This document shows positions 26,495 through 41,574 of a stretch of 64,000 bases of DNA, piece after piece. This DNA is from Micromonospora terminaliae (lineage in GTDB: Bacteria > Actinomycetota > Actinomycetes > Mycobacteriales > Micromonosporaceae), in the NCBI RefSeq assembly GCF_009671205.1, contig NZ_CP045309.1:2232001-2296000 (forward strand), given 5' to 3'. A model generated the notes under the pieces. The model did no database searches. It was not told where the DNA came from and saw only the letters and a list, made by a program, of their open reading frames with translations. Every line of letters begins with the position of its first letter. Position 1 is the stretch's first letter. The position numbers were made by a program, and so were the translations under genes.

Positions 26495-26500
26495 TACCTT
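26495..26500 (+). promoter_or_regulatory. -10 box of a leaderless histidine kinase transcript
   Basis: TACCTT fits TANNNT and ends 6 nt before the ATG at 26507. No Shine-Dalgarno is visible upstream, supporting a leaderless start and this choice of start codon. Confidence 0.45.
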
Positions 26501-26506
26501 GACGGC

Positions 26507-27685
26507 ATGGGACGACTCGAGCGGTGGCGCCGGGCCGCCGCCGCGCATCCGACGGTCGTCGACGCGCTGCCGGCCGCCGTGCTCTTCGCGGCGAGCCTCC
26601 TGCCGGTGAACCCACCCGGCGGCCCTCCGCGCGCCCCGCTCACGGCCGGCGCGGTGCTCCTCGCCCTGGTCGGCTCCGCGGCCCTGGTCCTCCGGCGCCG
26701 GCACCCGCTGCCGGTCCTCGCCGTGGTCACCGTCGTGGCGGCCACCGCGCTGCTCGCCCAGCAGGCCCGGGGACCGTTGGTGCTCACCGTGGCCCTGGCG
26801 GCGTACACGGTGGCCACCCGGACCGATCGGCGGACCGCCGTGGCGGCCGGCGCGGCCAGCGCCCTCCTGCTCGGCGCCTGCGCCGTCGTCGCGCTGGGCG
26901 TCGGCTGGCTCGATCCCGCCGTGGTGGTGCTGGTGCTCTGGTTCGGCGTGGCCGTCGCCGCCGGCGACGCGGTACGCAGCCGGCGCGCGTACGTGGCGGT
27001 GCTGGAGGAGCGGGCACGGCGGGCGGAGCAGACCCGCGAGGCGGAGGCCCGCCGCCGGGTCACCGAGGAGCGGCTGCGCATCGCCCGGGAGCTGCACGAC
27101 GTGGTGGCCCACCACATCGCGGTGATCAACGTGCAGGCCGGCGTGGCGGGGCACGTGCTGCGGCAGCGGCCGGACGCGGCCGAGGAGGCCCTCGGGCACG
27201 TACGCTCCGCCGCGCGGACCGTCCTCGACGAGATGGCCACCCTGCTCGGCGTCCTGCGCCGCCAGGAGGAGCCCGAATCCCCGACCGAACCCGCCCCCAG
27301 CCTGACCCGGCTCGACACCTTCGTCGACGGTTTCGCGGCCGGCCAGCCGGTGCGGTGGACGCTGAGCGGGCAGCCCCGCCCGCTGCCCAGCGCGGTCGAC
27401 GTAGCCGCGTACCGGATCATCCAGGAGTCGCTGACCAACGCCCATCGGCACGCCCCGGGCGCCCCCGTCATGGTCCACCTGCGCTACGCCCCGACCGGGC
27501 TCACCGTCGAGGTACGCGACCAGGGCGCCGGCGCGGGATCCGAACCGGGCGCCGGCCTCGGCCTGCTCGGCATGCGGGAACGCGCCGAGGCGGTGGGCGG
27601 CGCCTTCCACGCCGGCCCGCACCCCGACGGGGGCTTCGTGGTCCGCGCCGACCTGCCCGTCCCGCAGGACAAGGAGAACGCATGA
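26507..27685 (+). CDS. NarL-type sensor histidine kinase
   Basis: This 392-aa membrane kinase has about five N-terminal transmembrane helices without a large sensor domain, a short coiled stretch (EERARRAEQTREAEARRRV), a HisKA_3 domain with phospho-acceptor His in ARELHDVVAHHI, and an HATPase_c domain with the N box near ESLTNAHRHA and the G box GAGLGLLGMRERAEAVGG. It phosphorylates the response regulator encoded next, with which its stop overlaps (ATGA). The likely output is the adjacent ABC exporter. The start is supported by a leaderless-type promoter. Confidence 0.92.
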   Translation: MGRLERWRRAAAAHPTVVDALPAAVLFAASLLPVNPPGGPPRAPLTAGAVLLALVGSAALVLRRRHPLPVLAVVTVVAATALLAQQARGPLVLTVALAAYTVATRTDRRTAVAAGAASALLLGACAVVALGVGWLDPAVVVLVLWFGVAVAAGDAVRSRRAYVAVLEERARRAEQTREAEARRRVTEERLRIARELHDVVAHHIAVINVQAGVAGHVLRQRPDAAEEALGHVRSAARTVLDEMATLLGVLRRQEEPESPTEPAPSLTRLDTFVDGFAAGQPVRWTLSGQPRPLPSAVDVAAYRIIQESLTNAHRHAPGAPVMVHLRYAPTGLTVEVRDQGAGAGSEPGAGLGLLGMRERAEAVGGAFHAGPHPDGGFVVRADLPVPQDKENA

Positions 27686-28359
27686 CGGTCCGGGTGCTGC
27701 TCGCCGACGACCAGACCCTCATCCGCGCCGGATTCCGGGTGCTGATCGACTCGGCGCCCGACCTGACCGTGGTGGGGGAGGCGGCCACCGGCCGGGAGGC
27801 GGTCGCGCGGGCGCGCACCACGCGCGCCGACGTCGTGCTCATGGACATCCGCATGCCCGACCTGGACGGACTGGCCGCCACCCGCGAGATCACCGCCGAC
27901 GAGGACCTGGCGGGCGTACGCGTGCTCATCCTGACCACCTTCGAGGTCGACGAGTACGTCTTCGAGGCGCTCCGCGCCGGCGCCAGCGGCTTCCTCGGCA
28001 AGGGCGTGGAGCCGGGCGAACTGCTCGACGCCATCCGTACCGTCGCGGCCGGCGACGCCCTGCTGTCCCCGAAGGCCACCCGAGGGCTGATCGCTCGGTT
28101 CCTGGCCCAGCCCGAGCCGGAGCCGCCGGCCAGCCCGGACCGGCTGCGGGCGCTCACCGACCGGGAACGGGAGGTGCTGACGCTGGTCGCCACGGGGCTG
28201 AGCAACGAGCAGATCGCCCAGCGGCTGGTGGTGTCCCCGCTCACCGCCAAGACCCATGTGAACCGGGCCATGGCCAAGCTCGGCGCGCGGGACCGGGCAC
28301 AGCTCGTGGTGTTCGCCTACCAGACCGGGCTCGTCCGGGCGGACCCGCCGACGCAGTAG
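27682..28359 (+). CDS. NarL/LuxR-family response regulator
   Basis: This 225-aa regulator has a receiver domain with acidic residues in LLADDQ, phospho-acceptor Asp in VVLMDIRMP, Thr in LTTF and Lys in FLGKGV, followed by a LuxR HTH (LTDREREVLTLVATGLSNEQ, then LVVSPLTAKTHVNRAMAKLG). It overlaps the kinase gene by 4 bp after an AAGGAG site. It probably activates the downstream ABC transporter. Confidence 0.93.
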   Translation: MTVRVLLADDQTLIRAGFRVLIDSAPDLTVVGEAATGREAVARARTTRADVVLMDIRMPDLDGLAATREITADEDLAGVRVLILTTFEVDEYVFEALRAGASGFLGKGVEPGELLDAIRTVAAGDALLSPKATRGLIARFLAQPEPEPPASPDRLRALTDREREVLTLVATGLSNEQIAQRLVVSPLTAKTHVNRAMAKLGARDRAQLVVFAYQTGLVRADPPTQ

Positions 28360-28450
28360 GGCGACGGTCGGCGTACCGCGGCCGCGGTACGCGCAGGTGT
28401 CCGCGCCTGGCCGACGCGGCGGCCGACGTACGCGGGCGACGGTTGGTCAC

Positions 28451-29371
28451 ATGATCGAAGTGACCGGACTCAGCAAGCGCTACGGCGACAAGCTCGCCGT
28501 GGACTCCCTGACCTTCCAGGTCAGACCAGGCACCGTCACCGGCTTCCTGGGCCCCAACGGGGCCGGGAAGTCCACCACCATGCGGATGATCCTCGGCCTG
28601 GACGCCCCGACCGCCGGCACCGCGACGGTGAACGGCCGGCCCTACGCCGACCACCCCGCCCCGCTGCGGGAGATCGGCGCCCTGCTGGAGGCGAAGGCGG
28701 TGCACACCGGCCGATCCGCCCGTAACCACCTGCTCGCCCTGGCCGCGACGCACGGCATCGGCCGCCACCGGGTCGACGAGGTGATCGACCTGGTCGGCCT
28801 GCACGAGGTGGCCGGCAAACGGGCCGGCGGCTTCTCGCTCGGCATGGGCCAGCGGCTGGGCATCGCCGCCGCGCTGCTGGGCGACCCACGCGTGGTGATG
28901 CTCGACGAGCCGGTCAACGGCCTCGACCCGGACGGCATCCGGTGGATCCGCGACCTGCTCAAGGGCCTCGCCGCCGAGGGACGGACCGTCTTCGTCTCCT
29001 CCCACCTGATGAGTGAGATGGCGCAGACCGCCGAGCACCTGATCGTGGTGGGCCGCGGCCGGCTGATCGCCGACGTCTCCCTCGCCGAGTTCACCCGCCG
29101 GGCCTCCCGCGCCACCGTCCGCGTCCGCTCGCCGCAAGCCACCGCGCTGCGCGACGTGCTGGCCGGGCCGACGGTGGCGATCACCGGCGGCGAGCCGGGC
29201 CTGCTGGAGGTCACCGGCCTGACCCGGGAGCAGGTCGGCGAACGGGCGGCGGCGGCCGGCCTCACCCTGCACGAGCTCTCCGCCACCGAGGCCTCCCTGG
29301 AGGAGGCGTTCATGACCATGACCCGAGACGCCGTCGAGTACGCCGGCACCTCCGAGGGGAACCCGCGATGA
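28451..29371 (+). CDS. ABC transporter ATP-binding protein (DrrA-type)
   Basis: This 306-aa ATPase has Walker A GPNGAGKST, signature FSLGMGQR (LSxGQ-like), Walker B VVMLDEP and a switch His in SSHLMSE. The C-terminal extension is typical of export ATPases for drugs or lantibiotics. The ATG at 28451 begins MIEVTGLSKRYG. It overlaps the permease gene by 4 bp and follows the two-component genes by about 90 bp, so it probably belongs to their regulon. Confidence 0.92.
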   Translation: MIEVTGLSKRYGDKLAVDSLTFQVRPGTVTGFLGPNGAGKSTTMRMILGLDAPTAGTATVNGRPYADHPAPLREIGALLEAKAVHTGRSARNHLLALAATHGIGRHRVDEVIDLVGLHEVAGKRAGGFSLGMGQRLGIAAALLGDPRVVMLDEPVNGLDPDGIRWIRDLLKGLAAEGRTVFVSSHLMSEMAQTAEHLIVVGRGRLIADVSLAEFTRRASRATVRVRSPQATALRDVLAGPTVAITGGEPGLLEVTGLTREQVGERAAAAGLTLHELSATEASLEEAFMTMTRDAVEYAGTSEGNPR

Positions 29372-30195
29372 CCACGACCGCCACCCTGCCCGCCACCATC
29401 CCCACCGACGCCCGGGTCACCGGCCTCCGGGTGGTCCGCGCCGAATGGATCAAGTTCCGTTCACTGCGGTCCTCCCTGATCATGCTGGCCGCCACCGTGG
29501 TCGTCTTCGCCGCGCTCGGCCTCGGCTTCTCGGCGTTCCTGGCCGACGCCACCATCGAGCCCGGCACCCCCGCACCGCCCGGCGGGCCGTCCTCCCTCGA
29601 CTCGCTCGGCGCGAGCCTCGGCGGAGTCAACCTCGCCCAGCTGCTCATCGGCACCCTGGGCGTGCTGCTGGCCGCGGGGGAGTACTCCACCGGCATGATC
29701 CGCTCCTCGCTCGCCGCGGTACCCCGGCGCTGGCCGGTGCTCGCCGGCAAGGTCACGGTCCTGGCCGGCGTGTCCCTCACCGTGCTCGTGCCGACCGTGC
29801 TGCTCACCTTCCTCGGCGGGCAGACGCTGCTGGGCGACAAGGCCATCTCCCTCGCCGACGACGGTGCGCTCCGGGCGGTCCTCGGCGCCGCGGCCTACCT
29901 GACCGGGGTCGGCGTGCTCGGCCTGGCGCTCGGCTCGTTGCTGCGGAACACCGCCGGCGCGCTGACCAGCGTGGTGGCCCTGCTGCTGGTCGTGCCCGGG
30001 GTGGTCTCCCTGCTGCCGGAGACCTGGTCGGAGGCGGTCTCGCCCTACCTGCCCTCCAACGCCGGTCAGGCGGTGATGACCGTCGGGGCCCACCCGGACC
30101 TGCTGACTCCGGGAGCCGGGGCGGCCGTCCTCCTGGCGTGGCTGGTGGCTCTCGTCGGCGCCGCCGTCGTCCTGCTGCGCCGCCGCGACGCCTGA
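29368..30195 (+). CDS. ABC-2-type transporter permease
   Basis: This 275-aa membrane protein has about six helices, starting with a cytoplasmic segment and the WIKFRSLRSS motif common in ABC-2 permeases before helix 1. An extracytoplasmic loop follows helix 1, and a central GEYSTGMIRSSLAAVPRR segment is typical. It partners with the preceding ATPase (ATGA overlap). Substrate unknown; possibly lipids or an antimicrobial compound, given control by a NarL-type pair. Confidence 0.88.
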   Translation: MTTTATLPATIPTDARVTGLRVVRAEWIKFRSLRSSLIMLAATVVVFAALGLGFSAFLADATIEPGTPAPPGGPSSLDSLGASLGGVNLAQLLIGTLGVLLAAGEYSTGMIRSSLAAVPRRWPVLAGKVTVLAGVSLTVLVPTVLLTFLGGQTLLGDKAISLADDGALRAVLGAAAYLTGVGVLGLALGSLLRNTAGALTSVVALLLVVPGVVSLLPETWSEAVSPYLPSNAGQAVMTVGAHPDLLTPGAGAAVLLAWLVALVGAAVVLLRRRDA

Positions 30196-30308: not shown

Positions 30309-31562
30309 ATGCCCTTGAACCGCCTGCTGACCCTGGGGGTCGGCGTCTGCGCGGTCGCCACGCTCACCCTACCGGCCGCGTCCGCGTCGGCCGCACCGTC
30401 CACCCATCGCACCGGCGGCAGCCTGGTGCTCGTCGGCGGCGCCCTCGCCGACGACAACAGCGAGATCTACGGCGACATCGTCCGGCTGGCCGGCGGCCCC
30501 GGAAAGGCCCGCATAGGCATCGTCACCGCCGCCGCCCCGGTGCCCGCCGAGGACCCCGACGCCGACACCCCCGACTGCAACAACAGCGTCTGCAACGGCG
30601 ACTACTACGCGGACCTGTTTCGGACCTACGGCGTGGCCGACGCCCAGTGGATCCCCATCGACCTGGACCACCCGGCCGCGGCCGACGACCCGGCCGTGGT
30701 CCGGCAGATCGAGTCGATGACCGGCTTCTTCTTCGGCGGCGGAGACCAGTACCGCTACGTCACGACCATGACGCGCGGTGCGCCGCAGCGCGACAGTGCG
30801 GCGCTTGCCGCCATCCGGCGCAAGCTGCGGCACGGAGCGGTGGTCGCCGGCACCAGCGCCGGCGCCCAGATCATGGCCGGTCGGGACATGATCACCGGCG
30901 GTTCCACCGAGCCGGGACTTCGCGACGGCGCGAAGCCCGGCTACTTCGACGACCCGGGCGTGCTCGGCTACCTGCCGCACGGCGGGTTCGGCTTCTTCAC
31001 CGCCGGCCTGGTCGACACCCACTTCTCCCGCCGGGGCCGGGAGGCGCGCTCCATCCGGCTGGCCTCGGACACCCACCACCAGCGGGTGTTCGGGCTCGAC
31101 GAGAACACCGCCCTGGAGGTCACCGGCGTCGGCGGGCGCGCCCAGTCCCTGCGGGTGCTCGGGCAGCGCGGCGTCAGCGTGCTCGACCTGCGCCGCGCCC
31201 GGGTGACCGACCACGGCGGCGTGTGGGGCATCGAGGGCGTGCGGTGGAGCCGGCTCACCGCCGGGGACGCCTACCGGGCCGCCGGGTGGCGCACCGTGGT
31301 GGCCGCCGGCAAGCCGGCCGTCACCCCGGCGGACGGGCCGTGCGATGTCGCGCCCTCGACGGACGTCTTCTACGACTACGCCATGGTCGGGCTGGTCGAG
31401 GGGCTGGCCGCGCGGCGCGGCTGCGCGTCGGTCGGCGGCACCTCGTACGAGAAGAACCCGCAGTGGGAGGCCCACCTGACCCCGGGGGCCGGCTTCGCGG
31501 CGTACCGGGGGCAGACGGCGACCACCTTCACCGGCGTGGTGATCGGTATCGCCCCCGCCTGA
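30309..31562 (+). CDS. Secreted cyanophycinase-family serine exopeptidase (1)
   Basis: Cyanophycinases cut multi-L-arginyl-poly-L-aspartate into beta-Asp-Arg dipeptides. This 417-aa protein has a signal peptide (hydrophobic core then PAASASAAP), so it is extracellular. The peptidase S51 fold shows LVLVGGALAD, FFFGGGDQYRYV, nucleophile Ser in VAGTSAGAQIMAG near residue 185, His in VDTHFSRRGR, and Glu in FGLDENTAL. All triad positions are filled. The RBS is GAGGAG. A 21-bp hairpin terminator follows. It is likely the first enzyme of a cyanophycin locus with a second cyanophycinase, an RpiR regulator and a transporter. Confidence 0.88.
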   Translation: MPLNRLLTLGVGVCAVATLTLPAASASAAPSTHRTGGSLVLVGGALADDNSEIYGDIVRLAGGPGKARIGIVTAAAPVPAEDPDADTPDCNNSVCNGDYYADLFRTYGVADAQWIPIDLDHPAAADDPAVVRQIESMTGFFFGGGDQYRYVTTMTRGAPQRDSAALAAIRRKLRHGAVVAGTSAGAQIMAGRDMITGGSTEPGLRDGAKPGYFDDPGVLGYLPHGGFGFFTAGLVDTHFSRRGREARSIRLASDTHHQRVFGLDENTALEVTGVGGRAQSLRVLGQRGVSVLDLRRARVTDHGGVWGIEGVRWSRLTAGDAYRAAGWRTVVAAGKPAVTPADGPCDVAPSTDVFYDYAMVGLVEGLAARRGCASVGGTSYEKNPQWEAHLTPGAGFAAYRGQTATTFTGVVIGIAPA

Positions 31563-31584
31563 CCGGACCGACCTCCGCCGTCCT

Positions 31585-31633
31585 GACCCGGCGGCGCGCT
31601 CCCGCCCCCGTTGCGGGAGCGCGCCGCCGGGTC
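31585..31633 (+). terminator. Strong hairpin terminator
   Basis: A perfect 21-bp GC-rich stem (31585-31605 with 31613-31633) and a 7-nt loop lie 22 bp after the first cyanophycinase stop. There is no T-tract, as usual in actinomycetes. Confidence 0.75.
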
Positions 31634-31675
31634 GGTGTCGTTCCGGCCCGGATCATCGTCGGCCGACGCGGAACT

Positions 31676-31728
31676 GTAACAGAGGTTACTTATTGAGACT
31701 TGTGATTAACAGCTGTAACTTCTGTTTC
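31676..31728. promoter_or_regulatory. GTAAC-N4-GTTAC operator pair
   Basis: GTAAC-AGAG-GTTAC lies at 31676-31689 and a degenerate copy GTAAC-TTCT-GTTTC at 31715-31728, 39 bp apart, in an unusually AT-rich stretch before the second cyanophycinase gene. The same box occurs before the transporter operon at 34205-34218. MurR/RpiR regulators bind palindromes of this general kind, so the linked RpiR protein is the likely ligand. Confidence 0.6.
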
Positions 31729-31756
31729 ATCGATCCGTGGCCCCCCGGAGGTGCCC

Positions 31757-33184
31757 ATGTCCCGTGCCCGCAACCCCCGCCGACTCACGCTGGTGGCGGC
31801 CTCCGCCGCGCTCCTCACCCTCGCCCCGATCGGGGTCACCGCCGCCCACGCCCAGGTCACCCGGGTCCGGCAGGGCAGCGCCACCGACGCGAGCCGGACG
31901 GCCTGGTCCGGCCCGGCGTACACCATGAACGGCTCGGGCGGGATCGTCACCGCGACGATGAGCCGGGCGGTCGACGCCATCCGCGGCGGCACCGGCGCGA
32001 TCGACGTGGTGGTCGTGGCCGGCTCCGGCTCCGGGACCCCGGAGTGCGACGTCATCACCCCGCTGACCGGCGTCAACTCCTGCACGACGCTCACCCTGAC
32101 CGCCGCCCGGGACGGCAACGACAGCCAGGTCAACACCGACATCCGCAACGCCGAGTTCGTCTACTTCGCCGGCGGCGACCAGTGCAACTACGTGGCCTGG
32201 AAGGGCACGGCGCTGGAGGTGTCGGTGGAGTCGGTGGTCGCCAAGGGCGGCGGGGTCGGCGGCGGCAGCGCGGGCCACCACGTGAACAGCGACATCGTGT
32301 ACGACGCCTGCACCGCGAGCGCCACCTCGGCGACGGCGCTGGCCAACCCGTACGACCGATCGCTGACCTTCACCACCGGCATGTTCCGCTGGCCGAACTA
32401 CGCCGACACGATCAACGACTCGCACTTCGTCACCCGCGACCGGATGGGCCGCACCATGGCGTTCGTGGCGCGGGCCGTGAAGGACGGCCGGACCAGTGGC
32501 GGCAGGGCCTGGGGCGTCGGCGTCGAGGAGGGCGCTTCGCTCTACATCGACCGCAACGGCCTGGCCACGTTGAGCGGACCCAGCGCGTACGTCGTGCTCG
32601 GCGACCACCAGCCCGAGGTCGCCGTCTCGGGCCAGCCGCTCACCTACACGAACTTCAAGATCTGGAAGCTGACCAGTGGTCAGACCTACGACTTCGCCAA
32701 CCGTCCCACCTGCGGCTACTACCTCAAGAGCGTGCGGGCCGGGGTGCCCGACGGCAGCCTCTACAGCGGCACGCCGGTCACCGACTGCTCGTCGACGCCG
32801 CCACCCTCCGGCGGGTCCGCCTACGCCGAGGTCGAGCCGAACGACTCGCGCACGGCCGCCAACGTCATCACCGCGCTGACGTACCCGGCGACCGTCACGG
32901 GCGACATGAAGAGCAGCACCGACCGGGACTACTTCGCCCTGACCCTCGCAAGTGGGCAGACGCTCACGGCCGCCTGCGCGATCCCCACCGCCTACGACGC
33001 CGACCTCTACCTGCTCAGCTCCAACGGAAGCACGCTGACCCGGTCGGTGAACGACGGCGCCGGCACCGACGAGTCGGTCACCCTGACCCGGACGGCGTCC
33101 GGCTCGGCGACCTACTACCTCGACCTGGAGGCGTACTCCGGCTCCGGCGCCGCCGACTACTCCTGCACCCTCACCCGGTCCTGA
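31757..33184 (+). CDS. Secreted cyanophycinase with C-terminal PPC domain (2)
   Basis: This protein of about 475 aa has a signal peptide ending near AHAQ, an S51 peptidase domain and a C-terminal pre-peptidase (PPC) beta-sandwich of about 115 residues that starts at YAEVEPNDSRTAANVI. Catalytic landmarks are FVYFAGGDQCNYV, Ser in VGGGSAGHHV, His in INDSHFVTRD and Glu in VGVEEGASLYI. The PPC domain may bind insoluble cyanophycin or be removed on secretion. The ATG at 31757 follows GGAGG by 6 nt. It is preceded by two RpiR-type boxes and followed by a strong terminator. It is a paralogue of the upstream enzyme but clearly diverged. Confidence 0.87.
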   Translation: MSRARNPRRLTLVAASAALLTLAPIGVTAAHAQVTRVRQGSATDASRTAWSGPAYTMNGSGGIVTATMSRAVDAIRGGTGAIDVVVVAGSGSGTPECDVITPLTGVNSCTTLTLTAARDGNDSQVNTDIRNAEFVYFAGGDQCNYVAWKGTALEVSVESVVAKGGGVGGGSAGHHVNSDIVYDACTASATSATALANPYDRSLTFTTGMFRWPNYADTINDSHFVTRDRMGRTMAFVARAVKDGRTSGGRAWGVGVEEGASLYIDRNGLATLSGPSAYVVLGDHQPEVAVSGQPLTYTNFKIWKLTSGQTYDFANRPTCGYYLKSVRAGVPDGSLYSGTPVTDCSSTPPPSGGSAYAEVEPNDSRTAANVITALTYPATVTGDMKSSTDRDYFALTLASGQTLTAACAIPTAYDADLYLLSSNGSTLTRSVNDGAGTDESVTLTRTASGSATYYLDLEAYSGSGAADYSCTLTRS

Positions 33185-33200
33185 CCCGGCATCCCCCATC

Positions 33201-33238
33201 GGCCGTGGGGCGGGGCACCGCCGTCCCGCCCCACGGCC
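33201..33238 (+). terminator. Hairpin terminator after second cyanophycinase
   Basis: A perfect 14-bp stem (33201-33214 with 33225-33238) and a 10-nt loop lie 16 bp after the stop codon. A second 10-bp hairpin follows at 33241-33267. Confidence 0.75.
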
Positions 33239-33240
33239 TT

Positions 33241-33276
33241 GCCGTCCCGGGCGCATCCCGGGACGGCCGTTAGGCT
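33241..33276 (+). promoter_or_regulatory. Hairpin and leaderless promoter of rpiR gene
   Basis: The hairpin GCCGTCCCGG / CCGGGACGGC (33241-33267) abuts TAGGCT (33271-33276), a TANNNT box 6 nt before the GTG start at 33283. This suggests independent, leaderless transcription of the regulator. The hairpin may add termination or act as an operator. Confidence 0.5.
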
Positions 33277-33282
33277 CGGCGC

Positions 33283-34167
33283 GTGTCGAATCCCGATCCT
33301 GTCGAGGAACCCCACGGCGTGGGCGTCGCCGCGCTGGTCCGCCAGCGGCTCGGCGAGTGCAGCCCGGCCGAACGCCGGGTCGCCCGCGCCCTGCTCGCCT
33401 CCTACCCGGCCGCCGGGCTGGGCACGGTCGCGGCGCTGGCCGAGCGTGCCGAGGTGAGCGCCCCGACGGTGCTGCGCTTCCTGTCCCGGCTCGGCTTCGG
33501 CGGCTACCCCGAGTTCCAGCGGGCGCTGCGGGAGGAACTGGCCGAGCGGGAGACCTCACCGCTGACGGCGTACCGGGCGGCCGAGCGCACCGGCGCGCCA
33601 CCGGAGGGCGCGCTGCCCCGGGCCGCCGCGACGCTGCCCGAGGCGGTGGCCGGGACGCTCGCCGAGCTGCCGCAGGGTGAGCTGGACGCCGCCGTACGCC
33701 TCTTCGCCGACCAGCAGCTGCGGGTCACCGCGGCCGGCGGCCGTTTCTCCGCGCTGCTCGCCCACTACCTGGTGCTGCACCTCATGCAGGTACGTGGCAA
33801 CAGCCGGCTGCTCCCGGCCAGCCCCGTGGAGCGCACCGACATGCTGGTCGACGTGGGGCGGCGCGATCTGGTCGTGCTCTTCGACTTCCGTCGCTACGAG
33901 GAGGCGACCCTGGCGCTGGCCCGGAACGTCACGGCGCGGGGCGCCAAGGTGGTGCTCTTCACCGACCGGTGGCTGTCCCCGGTCGCCGGCCTCGCCGAGG
34001 TGGTGCTGCCCAGCCGGGTCGACTCGCCCTCGCCGTACGACAGCTTCGCCCCGACCCTGGCGCTGGTGGAGACCCTGGTCGCGGCGCTGATCGACCGGCT
34101 CGGGCCGGTGGCGGGCGCCCGGCTCAAGGCCATGGAGGCGGCGCAGCAGGCCTTCGGGGAGGACTGA
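33283..34167 (+). CDS. MurR/RpiR-family transcriptional regulator
   Basis: The 294-aa regulator has an N-terminal HTH_6 domain (GTVAALAERAEVSAPTVLRF, then LSRLGFGGYPEFQRAL) and a C-terminal SIS domain (about residues 130-270) that in this family binds phosphosugars or other small ligands. It sits between the second cyanophycinase and the amino-acid transporter genes, both of which carry GTAAC-N4-GTTAC boxes. It therefore probably represses both until a degradation product (for example beta-Asp-Arg, Arg or Asp) is present. The GTG start is leaderless. Its ligand is inferred only from neighbours. Confidence 0.9.
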   Translation: MSNPDPVEEPHGVGVAALVRQRLGECSPAERRVARALLASYPAAGLGTVAALAERAEVSAPTVLRFLSRLGFGGYPEFQRALREELAERETSPLTAYRAAERTGAPPEGALPRAAATLPEAVAGTLAELPQGELDAAVRLFADQQLRVTAAGGRFSALLAHYLVLHLMQVRGNSRLLPASPVERTDMLVDVGRRDLVVLFDFRRYEEATLALARNVTARGAKVVLFTDRWLSPVAGLAEVVLPSRVDSPSPYDSFAPTLALVETLVAALIDRLGPVAGARLKAMEAAQQAFGED

Positions 34168-34174
34168 CCCCGAC

Positions 34175-34218
34175 GTTACAGAAAATTGTAATCTCGCCGA
34201 GACCGTAACGTCAGTTAC
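34175..34218. promoter_or_regulatory. Operator boxes before transporter operon
   Basis: TTACA-GAAAAT-TGTAA (34176-34191) and GTAAC-GTCA-GTTAC (34205-34218) lie between the rpiR stop and the binding-protein gene, 45-90 bp before its ATG. The second matches exactly the architecture of the box before the second cyanophycinase. Confidence 0.6.
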
Positions 34219-34262
34219 AGTCCGGGGGCTGGTTGACACCTGGCCCCCGGAAGGACACCCCC

Positions 34263-35210
34263 ATGCGCATCCGCCAGTTCGCCCTGCTCGGCGCGACCGC
34301 GGCGCTGCTCGCCGCCACCGCCGCCTGTGGCGGCTCCACCTCCGCCGCCGATTCCGCCGCCGAGAAGATCAAGCCCGTCTCCGTCAGCATCGAGGGCGTG
34401 GGCGCGGTCGCCACCGACAACGACCTCGCGAAGAAGGTGCCCGCCGACGTGCGCGGGCGGGGCGGCATCACCGTCGCCACCAACGCCCCCTACCAGCCGT
34501 TCATCGACTTCAAGGTCGAGGGGAAGACCGACGAGTTCAAGGGCCTGGACTACGACCTGTTCCAGGCCGCCTCGGCCCGGCTCGGGCTGACCGCGACCTT
34601 CTCCCAGCAGCCCTTCGACGGCCTGGTCCCCGGCCTCCAGGCCGGCAAGTACGACGCCATCGCCGGCGGCATCACCGACAAGAAGGAGCGCCAGCAGGTC
34701 GCCACCTTCGTCGACTACTCGGCCTCCGGCACCGGCTTCCTGGTCGCCACCGGCAACCCCCTCGGCGTCAGGACCGTCGCCGACCTGTGCGGGCGCAAGG
34801 TCGCCGTGCAGAAGGCCAGCAACCAGGCGAAGAACCTGACCGCGTACGCCAAGGAGAGCTGCACCGGCAAGGCCGTCGAGGTCAAGGAGTACCCGGAGAA
34901 CCCGCAGGCGGTGCAGGCGCTGATCGCCGGCAACGTCGACGCGGTCGCCGCCACCAAGGTCAACCTGGTCGACACCGCCGCGTCGCTCACCGGCAAGGCC
35001 GAACTGGTCGACGACCCGGCCGCGCCCAACGGCTGGCTGGCCAGCCCGAACGGCTTCGGCTTCCTCAAGGCCAACAAGGAACTCGCCGAGGCGTACCGGG
35101 CCGCCGTGCAGTCGCTGATCGACGACGGCACCTACGACAAGATCCTCGCCCGGTGGAAGCAGACCCCCATCGCCGTCAAGCAGGCCACCGTCGACAAGGC
35201 CATCGACTGA
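34263..35210 (+). CDS. Amino-acid ABC transporter substrate-binding lipoprotein
   Basis: This lipoprotein of about 315 aa has a signal peptide and lipobox ATAAC (Cys near residue 22), followed by a family 3 solute-binding domain (polar amino acids, opines): GITVATNAPYQPFIDFKVEG, GLDYDLFQAASARLGL, YDAIAGGITDKKERQQV. It is the first gene of a four-gene operon with permease, ATPase and M20 peptidase. Context suggests capture of cyanophycin breakdown products such as Arg, Asp or beta-Asp-Arg. The ATG follows GGAAGGA. A hairpin after the gene may give it higher mRNA levels than the permease. Confidence 0.9.
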   Translation: MRIRQFALLGATAALLAATAACGGSTSAADSAAEKIKPVSVSIEGVGAVATDNDLAKKVPADVRGRGGITVATNAPYQPFIDFKVEGKTDEFKGLDYDLFQAASARLGLTATFSQQPFDGLVPGLQAGKYDAIAGGITDKKERQQVATFVDYSASGTGFLVATGNPLGVRTVADLCGRKVAVQKASNQAKNLTAYAKESCTGKAVEVKEYPENPQAVQALIAGNVDAVAATKVNLVDTAASLTGKAELVDDPAAPNGWLASPNGFGFLKANKELAEAYRAAVQSLIDDGTYDKILARWKQTPIAVKQATVDKAID

Positions 35211-35248
35211 CCCCGGCGGACCACCACCCCTGATCCGCGGTCGTCGGG

Positions 35249-35271
35249 CGCCCTCCACTTCCGTGAGGGCG
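35249..35271 (+). terminator. Intercistronic hairpin between binding protein and permease genes
   Basis: A 7-bp stem CGCCCTC / GAGGGCG with a 9-nt loop lies in the 118-bp gap. It may act as an attenuating or mRNA-stabilising structure that favours binding-protein expression. Confidence 0.4.
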
Positions 35272-35328
35272 GGCCCGGAGAGGCGCCCGGCGACCGCCGC
35301 CACCTTCCTCCGCAGGAGGCACCGCAGA

Positions 35329-36183
35329 ATGACCACCGACACCCCGGCGGTGCGAGTCGTCCCCGTCCGCCACTACGGGCGCTGGCTGACCGCGCTGATC
35401 GTGTTCGGACTGACCGCCCTGTTCCTCCGGGCGCTGCTGAGCAGCCCCAACCTCGAACCCGGCACCATCGCCCATTACCTGTTCAAGGACTACGTCCTCG
35501 ACGGCGTCGTCACCACGCTCTGGCTGACCCTGCTGGCCATGCTCCTCGGCACCGCCGGCGGGATCCTGCTCGCCGTGATGCGGCTGTCGGAGAACCCGGT
35601 GCTGCGCGGCGTCTCCTGGACCTTCATCTGGATCTTCCGGGGCACCCCGCTGCTCGTGCAGATCATCTTCTTCGGCTTCCTCGGCGCGCTGTTCCCCCGC
35701 ATCACCCTGACCGTGCCGCTCACCGGCACCGTCCTGTTCGACCGCCCCACCAGCGTGGTGGTCACCGGCACCGTCGCCGCCGTGCTCGCCCTGTCCCTCA
35801 ACGAGATGGCCTACGCCGCGGAGGTGATCCGCGGCGGCATCCTCGCCGTGGACGGCGGGCAGACCGAGGCCGCCGCCGCGCTCGGCATGAGCCCCACGCT
35901 GACCCTGCGCCGCGTGGTGCTGCCCCAGGCCATGCGGGTCATCATCCCGCCGATGGGCAACGAGACCATCACCATGCTGAAGTCCACGGCCCTGGTGTCG
36001 ATCATCGCCGGACGCGACCTCATGACCGCCGTGCAGACCGTCTACCAGAACAACTACAAGGTGATCCCGCTGCTCGTGGTGGCGGCGATCTGGTACCTCG
36101 CCCTGGTCAGCCTCCTCTCGGCCGGCCAGTGGCTGATCGAGCGGCGCTTCGGCCGCGGCTTCGCCCGAGGAGGCGTGCGATGA
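35329..36183 (+). CDS. Amino-acid ABC transporter permease (HisMQ type)
   Basis: The 284-aa permease has about five to six helices. The conserved EAA loop reads [28 protein letters not shown], and [20 protein letters not shown] starts the transport domain. The ATG at 35329 gives [11 protein letters not shown]. It is coupled to the ATPase gene by an ATGA overlap. A single permease suggests a homodimer or a fused-type system of the polar amino-acid uptake family. Confidence 0.9.
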
Positions 36184-36941
36184 CTCCGATGGTGCGTGCC
36201 GAGGGCGTCACCAAGCGGTTCGGCACCGTCGAGGTGCTCAAGGGCGTCGACCTGACCGTCCGGCCCGGCGAGGTGGCCTGCCTGCTCGGCCCCTCCGGCT
36301 CCGGCAAGTCCACCTTCCTGCGCTGCATCAACCACCTGGAGCGCATCGACGGCGGCCAGCTCTGGGTCGACGGCGACCTCGTCGGCTACCGCCGCCAGGG
36401 CGACAAGCTCCACGAGCTCAAGGCCCGCGAGGTGGCCGTGCGCCGCCGGGACATCGGCATGGTCTTCCAGCGGTTCAACCTCTTTCCCCACCTCACCGCG
36501 CTCGGCAACGTCATCGAGGCGCCCGTCCGCGTCCTCGGCACCCCCCGCGACAAGGCCCGGGAGCAGGCCATGCGGCTGCTCGACCGGGTCGGGCTCACCG
36601 AGCGCGCCGGCAACTACCCGAGCCAGCTCTCCGGCGGCCAGCAGCAGCGCGTCGCCATCGCCCGGGCCCTGGCCATGCGCCCGAAACTGATGCTCTTCGA
36701 CGAACCCACCTCCGCGCTCGACCCGGAACTGGTCGGCGAGGTGCTGGACGTCATGAAGGGCCTCGCCGCCGACGGCATGACCATGGTCGTGGTCACCCAC
36801 GAGATGGGCTTCGCCCGCGAGGTCGCCGACCAGGTCGCCTTCCTCGACGCGGGCGTGGTCGTCGAGGCCGGCACGCCGGCCGAGGTGCTCGGCAGCCCGC
36901 GCCACGACCGCACCCGCGCCTTCCTCGACAAGGTGCTCTGA
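36180..36941 (+). CDS. Amino-acid ABC transporter ATP-binding protein
   Basis: The 253-aa ATPase has Walker [11 protein letters not shown]-loop in [18 protein letters not shown], signature LSGGQQQR, Walker B LMLFDEP and the H-loop in [12 protein letters not shown], all typical of GlnQ/HisP. It energises the preceding permease and binding protein. Its stop overlaps the ATG of the M20 peptidase gene by one base, placing uptake and intracellular hydrolysis in one transcript. Confidence 0.93.
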
Positions 36942-38110
36942 TGGACCCACTGATCGCGGCCGCCGGCGACCGGCTGGCCACCTACCACGACCGGCTCGCC
37001 CGACTGGTCGCCGTCGACACCGGCTCCGGGCACGTCGACGGTCTGCGGGCCGCCGCCGACCTGGTGCAGACCTGGTGCCTGGCCGCCGGGCTGGCCGTCG
37101 AGCGGGAGCCGGTCGCCGACCCGGCCGGAACGCCGCTCGGCGACGTGCTCATCGCCCGCCGCCGCGGCACCGGCACCCGCCGCATCCTGCTCGCCGGGCA
37201 CCTCGACACGGTCTTCCCGGCCGGCACGGCCACCGCCCGGCCGTTGCGGGTCCACGACGGCCGGGCGTACGGGCCCGGGGTCAGCGACGACAAGGGCGGC
37301 CTGCTCGCCGGCCTCGCCGCCGTCGAGGTGCTCACCGCGCTGAACCTCGACGGGTACGGGGAAATCGTGCTGGTCTGCACCCCGGACGAGGAGATCGGTT
37401 CGCCGGGCAGCCGGCCGCTGCTGCGTACCCTCGGGGCCGAGGCCGACGTGGCGCTCTGCCTGGAGTGCGCCCGCGACAACGGCGACCTGGTGTCGGCGCG
37501 CAAGGGGGTTGCCGACCTGGAGGTGACCCTGCGCGGGCGGGCCGCGCACGCCGGCATCGAGCCCGAACGCGGCGCGAACGCCCTGCTGGCCGCCGCCCGG
37601 CTCACCGTGGCGCTGGACCAGCTCAACGGCCGCTGGCCCGGGGTGACGGTGAACGTCGGGGTGCTGGAGGCCGGCGGCCGGCCCAACGTGGTGGCCGACC
37701 GGGCCCGGATGCTCGTCGACCTGCGCGCGTGGCACACCGGCGAGTACGAGGCCGCACTCGCCGAGATCCGCCGGCTGGTGGCCGCGCCGTCGGTCTCCGG
37801 CGTCCGCGCCGAACTGGCTGTGCACGCCCCCACCCCGCCCTGGGAACCCGGTCCGGCCGGGCGCCGGCTCATCGAGCTGGCCGCGAAGGTCGGCGCCGGA
37901 ATCGGCGTGCCCGTGTCGCACACCGCCACCGGCGGCTGCGCCGACGCGAACCTGCTGGCGGAGGCCGGGGCGGCGGTGCTGGACGGGCTCGGCCCGATCG
38001 GCGGCGCCGATCACAGCCCGGGGGAGTGGCTGGACCTCGACTCGGTGGTCCCGCGGGTGGCCCTGCTCGCGGGCCTGATCGACATGGTCGGCGTGGCCGA
38101 CCGGCCCTGA
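36941..38110 (+). CDS. M20-family metallopeptidase (CPG2-like)
   Basis: This 389-aa cytosolic zinc peptidase has metal ligands in AGHLDTVF (His), [10 protein letters not shown] (Asp), DEEIGSPGS (catalytic Glu and metal Glu), CLECARDNG (Glu) and GADHSPGEW (His). A dimerisation domain lies between with [14 protein letters not shown]. The nearest architecture is glutamate carboxypeptidase/ArgE-like. As the last gene of the transporter operon it probably hydrolyses an imported dipeptide or acylated amino acid. In a cyanophycin locus beta-Asp-Arg is the obvious candidate, although known beta-aspartyl dipeptidases are from other families. The substrate is inferred. Confidence 0.88.
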
Positions 38111-38374
38111 CGCTCGGCGCTGGGCAACAGAGTGCGCCGTCCGACGGCTGTCACCGAGCAGTGAACGACAGGGGCCACGCCGTGTGGGAATTCCGGTGGC
38201 CTTGACAGCCGCCGGAACCAGAGGGGGTGCGCGATGCCGCATGCCTCTCCGCCCGATGTGCTCTCATGTCTGGGGCGGCATCTTTGGTCACCTTCTTCGC
38301 CGGGTCGGCGGAGTTCGTCGGGCCCGCCGCCACCGACATTGCGTTGAGCGCCGTGCAGCGAAACGGAGGTGGTT

Positions 38375-39073
38375 GTGCAACCGACGTGGCTCGTGATGCT
38401 CGCGTGGGCCTCGCTCCTCGTGGTGCTGGCCAGCACCGCCGTTGTCGCTGTTGATCAATTTGTCCTTGGCTATCGTCAGCCAGCCAAGATCATGGAGATA
38501 GTCTGGCCGGCAACCGCCCTCTACCTCGGCCCGGCAGCCGTCCTGACCTACCGAAAATGGGGGAGACCCCAGTCTCGCCGGTGGCTCGACCGGCACGGCA
38601 AGCCGCCCAGGACGTCGCGCCATGCTCCCACGACAATCCAAACTTATCATTGCGCGACGCACTGCACTCTGGGTGTCATCATTGCTACGCCCATCATCTA
38701 CGGCATAGGCCTCGAGATCTTCGGCAGCACACTGTGGCCTGAAGTCGTCGGCGACTATCTAGGCGCAGTGGCCATCGGTATCGCATTTCGCTACTCCACC
38801 GAGGAGCACACCGGCGGTCGGCGAGCGTGGGCCGCCGTGCGGAAATTCCTCCGCGGCGACCTGCTGACGGTGTCCGTCTTCGAGCTCGCCCTATTGGGTT
38901 GGCTGGCGCTGATGCATCTTCGCGTCTTCCACGAGACCCTGCGGCCTGGTAGTCCCGTTTTCTGGTTCATCATCCAGGTCGGGTTGATCATCGGCTTCTT
39001 CGCCGCGTGGCCGCCGACCTTGTTGCTGATCCGCCGTGGTGTCAAGACCGAATTGCTGGGCACGCCGAAGTAG
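38375..39073 (+). CDS. DUF4396 family membrane protein
   Basis: The product of about 232 aa has roughly six hydrophobic helices. The signature CATHCTLGVIIA with two Cys and a His lies at the start of the third helix, as in DUF4396 proteins, which may bind metal there. The GTG at 38375 follows GGAGG by 5-6 nt. Less GC-rich codons than in neighbouring genes (several AT-ending ones) hint at a different origin. The function is unknown; the divergent-side neighbours are cydAB. The 264-bp gap upstream has no recognisable gene. Confidence 0.7.
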   Translation: MQPTWLVMLAWASLLVVLASTAVVAVDQFVLGYRQPAKIMEIVWPATALYLGPAAVLTYRKWGRPQSRRWLDRHGKPPRTSRHAPTTIQTYHCATHCTLGVIIATPIIYGIGLEIFGSTLWPEVVGDYLGAVAIGIAFRYSTEEHTGGRRAWAAVRKFLRGDLLTVSVFELALLGWLALMHLRVFHETLRPGSPVFWFIIQVGLIIGFFAAWPPTLLLIRRGVKTELLGTPK

Positions 39074-39154: not shown

Positions 39155-40150
39155 TCAGGTGGTGTCCAGATGACCGCGCTGGTGCAGGACGAACAGCAGC
39201 GCCATGGCCGGAACGACGAGCAGGAGCGCCGCGGCGGCGACGACGCTGAGCGACGCCAGGGTCGCGTCGGGTGCTGCGGCCTCGTCGATGCGTAGCTGGG
39301 TGCCCAGCAGGTACGGGTACTGCGCGACGCCCCAGCCGACCACCACCGTGCCGGCCGCGCCGACGGCGAGCGCCTGCAGTAACCGCGGCGCCGCCCGATG
39401 CAGCAGCGCGAGGCTGGCCAGCCCGCATGCCGCGGAGATCAGCACCAACGGCAGGCCGCGCCCGGTCAGCCCGTCGAACAGACGCCCGGCGTCGGCGTGC
39501 AGGATGGCGATCCCCGCCAGCGCCACCGCGCCAGTCACCACGGCGCTGGCCCGGGCCCGACGGCGGAACCAGACCTCCAGGCGGGCGTCGGCGCGCGTAC
39601 GGGCTTCGGCGGTGAGGAACACCGCGGCGACGAACGCGCACACCCCGACCGCGAGCACTCCGCCGAGCAGCGACGTGGGGTTGACCCAGCTCGTCACGGG
39701 ATCGCCGTGCCCGCCGGCGGGCACCCGCCCGGAGGCGATCCCACCGGCGACCGTGCCGAGGAAGAACGGCGTGATCACCGACGAGGTGGCGAACGCCGCC
39801 CCGGTCGCCCGCTGCTGGTCGGTCCTCACCACCACCTTCCGGAACGCGAAGCCGCTGCCGCGGACCACGATGCCCAGGGCGGCGAGGCCCAGCGGAATGT
39901 AGAGCGTGGTCGTGATGGCGGCGAACGCGGAGGGGAAGCCGGTCCAGAGCATCACCAGGCAGAAGATCAGCCACACGTGGTTGGCCTCCCACACCGGCGC
40001 CAACGTCTGATCGATCAGGTGCCTCGATTCGCGCCCACGTCGGGCACCACCGGCGGTGAGATCCCAGAACCCGGCGCCATAGTCGGCGCCCCCGAGCACG
40101 GCGTAGGCGGTGACCCCGATGAACAACACGACGGCGGCGAACGTGCTCAT
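39155..40150 (-). CDS. cydB: Cytochrome bd ubiquinol oxidase subunit II
   Basis: This 331-aa integral membrane protein partners with CydA in the bd-type quinol oxidase, which reduces oxygen with high affinity without pumping protons. The N-terminal VTAYAVLGGADYGAGFWDL and VWEANHVWLIFCLVMLWTGF are family signatures, and about eight helices are predicted. The ATG at 40150 overlaps the cydA stop by 4 bp. No cydDC assembly genes lie nearby. Confidence 0.94.
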   Translation of the reverse strand: MSTFAAVVLFIGVTAYAVLGGADYGAGFWDLTAGGARRGRESRHLIDQTLAPVWEANHVWLIFCLVMLWTGFPSAFAAITTTLYIPLGLAALGIVVRGSGFAFRKVVVRTDQQRATGAAFATSSVITPFFLGTVAGGIASGRVPAGGHGDPVTSWVNPTSLLGGVLAVGVCAFVAAVFLTAEARTRADARLEVWFRRRARASAVVTGAVALAGIAILHADAGRLFDGLTGRGLPLVLISAACGLASLALLHRAAPRLLQALAVGAAGTVVVGWGVAQYPYLLGTQLRIDEAAAPDATLASLSVVAAAALLLVVPAMALLFVLHQRGHLDTT

Positions 40151-41574
40151 GGCTGCCCCGCCGCCGGCGTGGCCTCCGGGCCCCGGGCCGGGCCGTACGG
40201 CACGTCCGTCTCGGCCGCCCCGCCCTGGTCGCGCCAACGGCGGCGCAGCAGCCGCAGGACGTACACGGTGGTGGCGCCGACCGCGACGTACAGCGCGAGG
40301 GTGGCGGCGAAGAACAGCCACAGGTTGCCGGACGTGGTGACCGCGTCCCGGGTGAGGAGGTGACCGGTGACCGTCCACGGCTGCCGGCCGACCTCGGTGA
40401 CCACCCACCCCGCCTCCAGCGCCACCACCGCGAGCACACCACTGACCGTCGTCGCCCGCAGGAACCATCTGCTGCGCGGCAGGTCACGGCGACGCCACCA
40501 GGCCAGGGCGTACCAGGCGGAGAGGCCCAGCAGTGCCGTGCCGATGCCGACCATGGTGTCGAAGCTCAGGTGGACGATCGCGACCAGGCGGTCCGGTGGT
40601 CGCACCTCGGCGGGGATGGCGTCCAGCCCCTGGATTCGGGTGGACGGCGAGTAGCCGGACAACAGCGACGCCCCCGAGGGAATCTCGATGCCGCCGTGCA
40701 CCTTCCCGTTCGCGTAGTAGCCGCCCAGCACCTCCGGCACGTGGGTGCCCGTGGTCGGGACGGCCTCGATCGCGGCGAACTTCGCCGGTTCGTTCCGGTA
40801 GACCTCGCGCGCGGCGATGTCGCCGACGAAGATCTGCAGCGGGGTGACCAGCGCCGCGACGGTCAGCGGTATCGCCAGGCCGAGCCGGTGGTACCGGTCG
40901 CGGCGACCGCGCAGCATCCCGGCGGCGTACACGCCGGCGACGACGAACCCGGCGACCATGTACGCGGCCAGCAGCATGTGGACGGCCTCGAACCCGAAGG
41001 CCCCGTTGAAGATCACCTCCAGCGGGCGGACCTCCACGATCTCGCCGTCCCGCATGGTGAATCCGCCCGGCTGGTTCATCCACGCGTTCGCCGCGACCAC
41101 CGACAGCGTGCCGCCGATCCCGGAGAGCACCACCGGCACACCGGTCCAGAAATGCGGCCATGGTCGCATCCGCTGCCACCCGAAGACGTAGATCGCGACG
41201 AAGATCGCCTCCAGGAAGAAGAACAGACCCTCGATCGCGAACGGGATGCCGAACGCCGCGCCGTAGGTGCCCATCAGCCGCGGCCACAGCAGCCCGAGCT
41301 CGAACGACAGCACCGTCCCGGACACCGCGCCGACGGCGAACAGCACCGCCGCCACCTGCGACCAGCGCCGGGCCAGCAGCAGCGCCGTCTCGTCGTTGCG
41401 ACGGATGCCCCGGGCGTTCGCGATGAGCATCAGGAAGGTGAAGGCCACCCCGAACGGCACCAGGATGATGTGGAAGCCGAGGGTGAAGGCCATCTGCTCG
41501 CGGGCCGGCAGCAGCTGCGCCGGATCGGCCGGCACCAGGCTGGCGCCGACCGTCACCAGTGACAGTCCAGGCAT
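40147..41574 (-). CDS. cydA: Cytochrome bd ubiquinol oxidase subunit I
   Basis: The 475-aa haem-bearing subunit shows REQMAFTLGFHIILVPFGVA with the haem-ligand His, EGLFFFLEAIF with the buried Glu residues, the FEAVHMLLAAYM His/Met region, and the GRQPW motif in TEVGRQPWTV. The Q loop is short, as in actinobacterial and CIO-type oxidases. It is followed directly by cydB with an ATGA overlap. It supports respiration at low oxygen or under nitrosative stress, fitting the redox genes downstream. Confidence 0.95.
   Translation of the reverse strand: MPGLSLVTVGASLVPADPAQLLPAREQMAFTLGFHIILVPFGVAFTFLMLIANARGIRRNDETALLLARRWSQVAAVLFAVGAVSGTVLSFELGLLWPRLMGTYGAAFGIPFAIEGLFFFLEAIFVAIYVFGWQRMRPWPHFWTGVPVVLSGIGGTLSVVAANAWMNQPGGFTMRDGEIVEVRPLEVIFNGAFGFEAVHMLLAAYMVAGFVVAGVYAAGMLRGRRDRYHRLGLAIPLTVAALVTPLQIFVGDIAAREVYRNEPAKFAAIEAVPTTGTHVPEVLGGYYANGKVHGGIEIPSGASLLSGYSPSTRIQGLDAIPAEVRPPDRLVAIVHLSFDTMVGIGTALLGLSAWYALAWWRRRDLPRSRWFLRATTVSGVLAVVALEAGWVVTEVGRQPWTVTGHLLTRDAVTTSGNLWLFFAATLALYVAVGATTVYVLRLLRRRWRDQGGAAETDVPYGPARGPEATPAAGQP

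Follow-up and report, generated by a model that had tools for sequence, protein, structure and literature searches.

A conserved seven-gene locus of Micromonospora terminaliae as a candidate system for cyanophycin scavenging with a putative M20 dipeptide hydrolase

Cyanophycin is a nitrogen store of cyanobacteria; could an actinomycete carry a locus devoted to its depolymerization outside the cell, import of the released dipeptide and cleavage of this dipeptide in the cytosol? The question was raised by an earlier note on a 64 000-nucleotide stretch of the M. terminaliae genome (hereafter, the window), which described a contiguous and co-oriented gene set at positions 30309–38110. The ORF listing of the window bore this out, with all seven genes as placed, contiguous and on the + strand. 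Two neighbors were tried as further members of the module and rejected: an ABC exporter pair (28397–30195) adjoined the module only in G193 (24 loci), and a DUF4396 gene (38369–39073) was beside it in none of 24 loci.

The first two genes, ORF1 (30309–31562, + strand, 417 aa) and ORF2 (31757–33184, + strand, 475 aa), had been read as two secreted S51 cyanophycinases. At the N terminus of both products lies a hydrophobic stretch of the kind seen in exported proteins (as judged by a plain hydropathy check, not by a signal-peptide predictor), and ORF1 scored 36.2 bits with Pfam Peptidase_S51, above the cut-off of 23.9; to this extent the description stood. ORF2, on the other hand, had no Pfam S51 match in the domain search, and both proteins were below the cut-off of 126.6 bits for the NCBIfam cyanophycinase model TIGR02069 (106 bits for ORF1, 48 bits for ORF2). 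We therefore classed ORF1 as a CphE-type cyanophycinase and ORF2, which is below the curated cut-offs and only distantly related to other S51 proteins, as divergent cyanophycinase-like, neither being a member of TIGR02069. The C-terminal PPC-type domain of ORF2 scored 23.5 bits (cut-off 25.9); in a Microtetraspora relative the PPC domain reached 34.5 bits.

The catalytic Ser, His and Glu, said to be complete, are indeed all present in both window proteins (S183, H238 and E265 in ORF1; S171, H223 and E258 in ORF2). Among relatives the claim held for the Ser nucleophile of the GxSxG motif and for His, found in 72 of 73 non-redundant rows for ORF1 and in 78 of 79 for ORF2, with no residue at these positions in the remaining row of either alignment, but the acid varied: Glu was seen in 62/72 relatives in the column of E265 and in 44/78 in the column of E258, alignment shifts included. 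The latter count is low partly because one-residue shifts displace an E-E pair; across five ORF2-type proteins from three phyla E258 is invariant.

One could ask if these proteins are exported proteases acting on something else, such as isopeptides of the cell wall or surface, or alpha-Asp peptides as for peptidase E (also an S51 member), the locus then serving general scavenging of peptide nitrogen. The divergence of ORF2, the scores of both proteins below cyanophycinase cut-offs and the variable acid position speak for it; still, we consider it very unlikely, as the nearest relatives of solved structure are cyanophycinases and most of the residues named as binding substrate in CphB/CphE (PMC3235067) are conserved. 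Q147, D236, T237, R242, R244 and R247 of ORF1 agree with the binding set of CphE, and the five substrate-binding residues (Gln, Asp and three Arg) are all present in both window proteins, those of ORF2 being Q142, D221, R227, R229 and R232. In the relatives of ORF1 four of the five were kept in 72/72, and R242 was Arg in only 20/72; in the relatives of ORF2 they were kept in 78/78, except Asp (77/78). For the predicted model of ORF2 the best PDB match was the cyanophycinase 7uqv (Foldseek E 4.6e-10); with middling model confidence (pLDDT 69, stretches near S171 and H223 <50) this match supports the fold only. The next matches, which covered its C-terminal part, were collagen-binding/PPC domains of collagenases; other beta-rich matches, including bacterial toxin domains, were discarded as low-TM chance matches.

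Gene neighborhoods of relatives on plasmids also argue against a substrate other than cyanophycin. In a Priestia megaterium plasmid an ORF2-like cyanophycinase gene adjoins aspartate ammonia-lyase (ORF2 is 30.6% identical to a cyanophycinase from a Priestia plasmid), and in one Pseudoalteromonas plasmid neighboring ORF1-like and ORF2-like genes lie beside IadA and a YfcC-type transporter. Extracellular CphE is described in PMC3235067 for Pseudomonas alcaligenes (CphEal), P. anguilliseptica and Bacillus megaterium. By the features described there, rather than by the CphEal sequence, ORF1 is like CphE: exported, similar in length, with Ser/His/Glu, a Thr just ahead of the catalytic His, and the same Gln/Asp/Arg set; ORF2 differs from it in having Ser before His and a PPC domain.

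The domain search also found the remaining components that had been named. The MurR/RpiR-family regulator (33283–34167, + strand, 294 aa) has HTH_6 and SIS domains. The transporter is of the polar amino-acid (PAAT) type, with a solute-binding protein of family 3 (SBP; 34263–35210, + strand; SBP_bac_3, PF00497), a likely lipoprotein, a permease of the HEQRo type (35329–36183, + strand; TIGR01726) and an ATPase (36180–36941, + strand; PF00005), all above cut-off. The M20 metallopeptidase (36941–38110, + strand, 389 aa) has the M20 and dimerization (M20_dimer) domains. The SBP start is TTG 34233 in the ORF listing; ATG 34263 looks likelier. The ATPase gene shares 4 bases with the permease gene before it and 1 base with the M20 gene after it.

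Do these genes belong together? In a sample of 200 genomes of the family, own genome included, long-type ORF1, SBP and full M20 were found in the same 21 genomes, and ORF2 in 20 of those 21 (G172 being without it); in the 20 carriers other than M. terminaliae the module genes were clustered, in several orders. We then turned to other genomes, with 80 non-redundant loci that range from Micromonosporaceae as far as Streptomyces and Kitasatospora (duplicate contigs were taken out; L127 and L148 repeat the modules of L145 and L139). All seven genes were within 7–10.5 kb in 70 of the 80 loci, arranged in ten gene orders, and SBP-permease-ATPase-M20 were collinear in all 75 loci holding all four. 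The earlier note had named as refuting evidence that the genes are rarely together; in the sampled genomes they were nearly always together, so that this check did not refute it, and such counts of co-occurrence and clustering indicate that the grouping is not due to chance.

Some genes of these types were seen apart from the module. G134 has an extra ORF1 standing alone, and in G221 and L142 ORF2-type genes do so. The G221 relative (36%, from another actinobacterial family) has no transporter or M20 gene adjoining, by visual inspection; it speaks against a strict rule by which an ORF2-like gene would imply the module.

As to control by one regulator, the palindrome GTAAC-N4-GTTAC has three exact places in the 6.74-Mb genome, two of them in the locus: GTAACAGAGGTTAC upstream of ORF2 (31676–31689) and GTAACGTCAGTTAC upstream of the transporter genes (34205–34218). 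A second copy before ORF2, with one mismatch, starts 39 bp past the start of the first (31715–31728); no strand is assigned to these operator-like sites. A nearly locus-specific palindrome common to ORF2 and the transporter fits the idea of one regulator. In this genome no copy precedes ORF1 itself, which is thus only a possible member of the same regulon. In loci of the Catellatospora-type order, ORF1 is divergent from ORF2 and the palindrome in the intergenic region is common to both. With the motif originally taken from the window and then counted in the 80 loci, its density over the 320 nt that precede ORF1, ORF2 and SBP reached 1.87 per kb, versus 0.011 per kb elsewhere; at ≤1 mismatch it was not found in 20 of the 80 loci, mostly Streptomyces. 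From this distribution we infer that the RpiR protein may bind the GTAAC-N4-GTTAC sites. A point against it is that RpiR proteins usually sense sugar phosphates, not peptides.

Which enzyme would split the dipeptide? The product of the last gene shows no N-terminal hydrophobic export stretch in the simple hydropathy check and is presumably cytosolic. Its di-metal ligands H87, D116, E151, E175 and H358 are kept in 72/72 rows. The nearest solved structure is carboxypeptidase G2 (CPG2, 1cg2), which it matches with 166 bits over nearly the full length and with which it shares the complete di-metal ligand set; the best NCBIfam match, below cut-off, is a glutamate carboxypeptidase subfamily. These similarities would suit an alternative that keeps the extracellular half of the pathway and lets the transporter take free arginine, aspartate or ordinary peptides, with the M20 enzyme acting on another cytosolic substrate (e.g. 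C-terminal glutamate) and an unrecognized enzyme splitting beta-Asp-Arg. The SBP, with lysine/arginine/ornithine as its best NCBIfam subfamily (below cut-off), would agree as well. We regard this alternative as unlikely, since the M20 gene is collinear with the transporter genes throughout and stays clustered with the cyanophycinase genes in all the gene orders seen; in addition, IadA appears to occupy in the Pseudoalteromonas plasmid cluster the slot held here by M20.

The residue Arg324 of CPG2, which recognizes glutamate, is not kept either: in the column aligned to it (T298 of the M20 protein) there was Thr in 26, Cys in 45 and Ala in 1 of 72 rows, never Arg. The same column had no Arg in 41 other close M20 homologues, so its loss argues against CPG2 specificity, not for beta-Asp-Arg. 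A comparison with 42 close homologues revealed no convincing module-specific residues, and these homologues keep nearly all conserved residues of the module M20; they were chosen among 120 matches listed, without genomic context, and some of them may be module members.

Three kinds of enzyme are known for this step: IadA, IaaA and CphZ, the last being the family called ‘cyanophycin dipeptide hydrolase’. For that family the AstE/AspA profile (AstE_AspA_cat) was picked from its annotation in PMC10206079; only these three kinds of profile were searched, which leaves some room for the unrecognized enzyme. IadA was found in none of the 21 carrier genomes (E ≤ 1e-20), IaaA in none of the 21 and none of 25 further carriers (E ≤ 1e-5), and AstE/AspA in none of the 21 over cut-off, with two weak sub-cut-off matches, elsewhere in this genome (G000) and in G193; positive controls were detected. 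The M20 enzyme is thus likely the beta-Asp-Arg hydrolase of the locus. The reaction proposed for it, beta-Asp-Arg to Asp and Arg, is that of these three enzymes (PMC10206079); the folds differ, and M20 is not among the known beta-Asp-Arg hydrolases.

Cyanophycin synthetase CphA1 was above cut-off in 4 of the 21 carriers and not in this genome. The protein that scored highest here with TIGR02068 (207.9 bits over model positions 156–473) was considered as an own synthetase but rejected as not CphA1; by visual inspection the protein looks like GNAT plus ATP-grasp.

A cyanophycin utilization locus, in which cyanophycinase genes cluster with those for a transporter and a dipeptidase and serve environmental scavenging, was described by Ben Hania et al. 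(2017, as cited in PMC10206079). The locus studied here is like it in having cyanophycinase genes clustered with a transporter, and unlike it in having M20 rather than IadA or IaaA in the dipeptidase slot, a polar amino-acid ABC transporter, RpiR with a common palindrome and an actinomycete host. Open-licence literature gave no paper joining cyanophycin and Micromonospora and, among the matches listed, no such cluster (cyanophycinase with RpiR or M20, or in actinomycetes, or cyanophycin with Streptomyces). Loci of this kind are known from other phyla; new here are the RpiR regulator and the palindromic site, the PPC domain fused to the second cyanophycinase, and M20 as the likely dipeptidase.

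Taken together, the locus is quite probably one for actinomycete scavenging of cyanophycin, or of a very close Asp-isopeptide polymer, with M20 splitting the dipeptide; clustering, binding residues and palindrome favor the sequence of external depolymerization, import and cytosolic cleavage that had been suggested. ORF1 and ORF2, as exported S51 serine hydrolases, would cut the poly-Asp backbone extracellularly to yield beta-Asp-Arg (or beta-Asp-Lys), and the PPC domain may hold ORF2 on the polymer or the surface. The SBP, a likely lipoprotein, would import the dipeptide together with the ATPase and the one permease, and M20 would then hydrolyze this dipeptide to Asp and Arg in the cytosol. 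That would mean splitting an N-acyl bond on an alpha-amino acid, a kind of chemistry also carried out by ArgE, DapE and carboxypeptidase G2. Through the GTAAC-N4-GTTAC sites, RpiR would control both ORF2 and the unit formed by the transporter and M20 genes.

We lean, somewhat less firmly, to the view that M20 adds a fourth type of beta-Asp-Arg hydrolase, unrelated to IadA, IaaA and CphZ, and that it is dedicated to a scavenging regulon of actinomycetes under RpiR control; in carriers of CphA1 it may serve the cell’s own store. This reading names one specific gene, M20, as that of the dipeptide hydrolase. Isoaspartyl dipeptidases are still undiscovered in Firmicutes and Bacteroidota (PMC10206079), and the M20 solution in Actinomycetota, if true, would offer a new enzyme type to seek there. 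The exported cyanophycinases, one of them PPC-fused, could help to produce beta-Asp-Arg dipeptides, and the locus offers a compact, directly testable promoter/operator set. If the reading is true, many soil actinomycetes would be predicted to live on cyanobacterial nitrogen reserves.

The seven genes at 30309–38110 of the window lie on the plus strand and, by gene calls and domain searches, encode an exported S51 protein of 417 aa (ORF1, 30309–31562), an exported S51-like protein of 475 aa with a C-terminal PPC-type domain (ORF2, 31757–33184), a MurR/RpiR regulator (33283–34167), a family-3 solute-binding protein (SBP, 34263–35210), a polar amino-acid permease (35329–36183), a polar amino-acid ATPase (36180–36941) and an M20 metallopeptidase (36941–38110). 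The host genome comprises 6.74 Mb in two contigs. We saw that this co-oriented set, described in an earlier note, is real, and sequence evidence gives good support to its reading as a cyanophycin-scavenging locus. Overlaps between the permease and ATPase genes (4 bases) and between the ATPase and M20 genes (1 base) suggest that M20 is translationally coupled to the transporter. The stretch directly 5′ of the module (25976–30195) encodes a histidine kinase, a response regulator of the LuxR type and an ABC exporter. Of the 24 loci fetched, G193 alone has the exporter next to the module. Genes for cytochrome bd oxidase subunits I and II lie 3′ (39155–41574, minus strand).

In a structure–sequence search ORF1 matched solved cyanophycinases 3en0, 7uqw and 7uqv; its family profile matched solved cyanophycinases at 4.5e-23. 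ORF2 is more divergent (7uqv match at 0.01 for the single sequence, 1.5e-5 for the profile); the best PDB match of its predicted model was 7uqv (Foldseek E 4.6e-10, TM 0.70 by target length), followed, for the C-terminal part, by collagenase collagen-binding domains. Its nearest named relatives are from Micromonospora (93% and lower). The catalytic residues described for CphEal, Ser171, His224 (preceded by Thr223) and Glu251 (PMC3235067), correspond to Ser183, His238 (preceded by Thr237) and Glu265 in ORF1 and to Ser171, His223 and Glu258 in ORF2, where, unlike in CphEal, Ser222 precedes the His; the Ser/His/Glu set is complete in both proteins, as had been claimed. The CphEal binding residues Gln136, Asp222, Arg228, Arg230 and Arg233 (PMC3235067) have counterparts in ORF1 (Gln147, Asp236, Arg242, Arg244, Arg247) and ORF2 (Gln142, Asp221, Arg227, Arg229, Arg232). 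All these positions are invariant or nearly so in non-redundant relatives, except for Arg242 of ORF1 (kept in 20 of 72) and the triad acid (62 of 72 for ORF1, 44 of 78 for ORF2). The Ser, Asp, His, three Arg and Glu258 do not vary when ORF2 is aligned with relatives found in Microtetraspora, Priestia, Pseudoalteromonas and a distant actinobacterium. Frame ends were checked in seven loci with short ORF2 matches: the frame ended 0–3 residues past the S51 match in four Streptomyces loci (L143, L144, L153, L157), thus the PPC domain seems dispensable; it continued further in L146, L149 and L152.

Four of the seven proteins (ORF1, ORF2, SBP, M20) were sought in a 200-genome family sample that included the source genome. 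ORF2 was matched in 27 genomes at E ≤ 1e-3 (20 at full or near full length); SBP in 24 at E ≤ 1e-40 (21 at ≥64% identity, three at 35–41%); M20 in 23 at E ≤ 1e-60 (21 full length, two partial). ORF1 matched in 59 genomes, 21 with the long type (≥49% identity, almost end to end) and 38 with short or weak S51 matches. Carriers of ORF1, SBP and M20 were the same 21 genomes from six genera, 20 of them with ORF2 (G172 being the exception), and in the 20 besides the source genome the genes are clustered, in several orders; in the proposed neighborhood check across Micromonosporaceae, the genes thus nearly always occur together where present. One genome, G134, has an extra ORF1 copy with no other module gene adjoining. 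Partial ORF1 or M20 matches in module-free genomes (L083 of G123, L084 of G136, and G127 and G153) look like decayed remnants, suggesting loss of the module as well as gain.

Scanning a contig collection with the ORF2 alignment gave 72 loci from Micromonospora, Catellatospora, Dactylosporangium, Hamadaea, Streptacidiphilus, Streptomyces, Kitasatospora and Microtetraspora. With ten repeats of family loci and two same-contig module repeats left out, there were 80 non-redundant loci; 70 hold all seven genes, in ten orders and over 7.1–10.4 kb (RpiR was counted as best match, possibly a paralogue in some Streptomyces loci). SBP, permease, ATPase and M20 are collinear on one strand in all 75 loci holding the four. 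Among incomplete loci, L081 lacks ORF2, L118 lacks RpiR, L114 lacks ORF1, permease, ATPase and M20, and L142 is ORF2 alone; in six others (L094, L112, L123, L150, L151, L154) the missing genes fall at the end of the fetched stretch. In a 396-genome phylum sample ORF2 (E ≤ 1e-20) was found in one further genome only (G221, 36% identity), where the rest of the module is not beside it. From these distributions, the module is patchy but cohesive. A 112-kb plasmid of Kitasatospora fiedleri (plasmid 2, L163) carries a version with SBP, M20 (53% identical), RpiR and two ORF1-type cyanophycinases, in which a single annotated protein covers permease and ATPase; a search of the plasmid found no ORF2.

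A pattern search located two exact copies of the palindrome GTAAC-N4-GTTAC, at 31676 and 34205, and a one-mismatch copy at 31715; the rest of the 64-kb window has none at ≤1 mismatch. The whole genome holds one further exact copy, three in total; the 11 carrier genomes searched (of 21) have 23, with 11 in the module, where G173, G071, G137 and G172 have none. The two copies 5′ of ORF2 are 39 bp apart, as in most other Micromonospora loci. Of the sites at ≤1 mismatch in the 80 loci, 108 fall within the 320 nt 5′ of ORF1, ORF2 or SBP and 16 lie outside these stretches (1.87 versus 0.011 per kb); 60 loci have a site, those without being mostly from Streptomyces. As the motif was derived from this window, sites in near relatives are not independent support. 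We infer that RpiR binds this palindrome.

As β-Asp-Arg hydrolases PMC10206079 names IadA and IaaA, and it cites a parallel study for a third group, the 'cyanophycin dipeptide hydrolase' family, which carries M14 or aspartoacylase-like annotations. With E. coli matched as positive control in each profile search, none of the 21 carriers had IadA (TIGR01975, E ≤ 1e-20), IaaA (PF01112, E ≤ 1e-5; also none of 25 further carriers, mostly Streptomyces) or an AstE/AspA match over cut-off (PF24827; two weak matches). The cyanophycin synthetase CphA1 was over cut-off in four carriers (G044, G081, G137, G172), each with an adjoining S51 gene, yet without IadA or IaaA by profile. There is an apparent disagreement here with PMC10206079, by whose account each of 35 surveyed Actinomycetota with CphA1 has IadA/IaaA; method or sampling may be the cause. 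In these four genomes the cell's own cyanophycin might also depend on M20. A split CphA1 match in G090 is perhaps a fifth case. In the source genome no CphA1 was found over cut-off; its best match (L160 2057–4420, minus strand), with a GNAT and ATP-grasp look, is only partial and so not a cyanophycin synthetase.

On a Pseudoalteromonas xiamenensis plasmid (L162 1290–10891; a single record), adjoining ORF1-like and ORF2-like S51 genes lie beside iadA (TIGR01975, 439.5 bits, over cut-off), with genes for a YfcC-type transporter and an annotated TonB receptor; in the ORF2-like protein there, the PPC domain is N-terminal, whereas it is C-terminal in ORF2. The ORF2 search of a plasmid collection gave 11 records: this one, nine from Priestia and one PPC-domain-only match. 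On one Priestia megaterium plasmid an ORF2-like cyanophycinase (30.6% identity) adjoins aspartate ammonia-lyase. An extracellular cyanophycinase, which may or may not be this one, is mentioned for a B. megaterium strain in PMC3235067. These neighborhoods place the pair of ORF1 and ORF2 in a cyanophycin context, a known dipeptidase occupying the place of M20.

Cyanophycin-scavenging loci are already known (cited in PMC10206079), thus the module is a variant rather than a new kind; what would set it apart is control by RpiR with a near-unique site, a second cyanophycinase that is exported and bears a PPC domain, and a probable M20 last step. M20 is full length, lacks a hydrophobic N-terminus by hydropathy and is encoded by a gene fixed to the transporter genes; its di-metal ligand set is complete in 72 of 72 members of the module. 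It is the probable last step of cyanophycin scavenging, and this directly testable claim is where new knowledge would come from.
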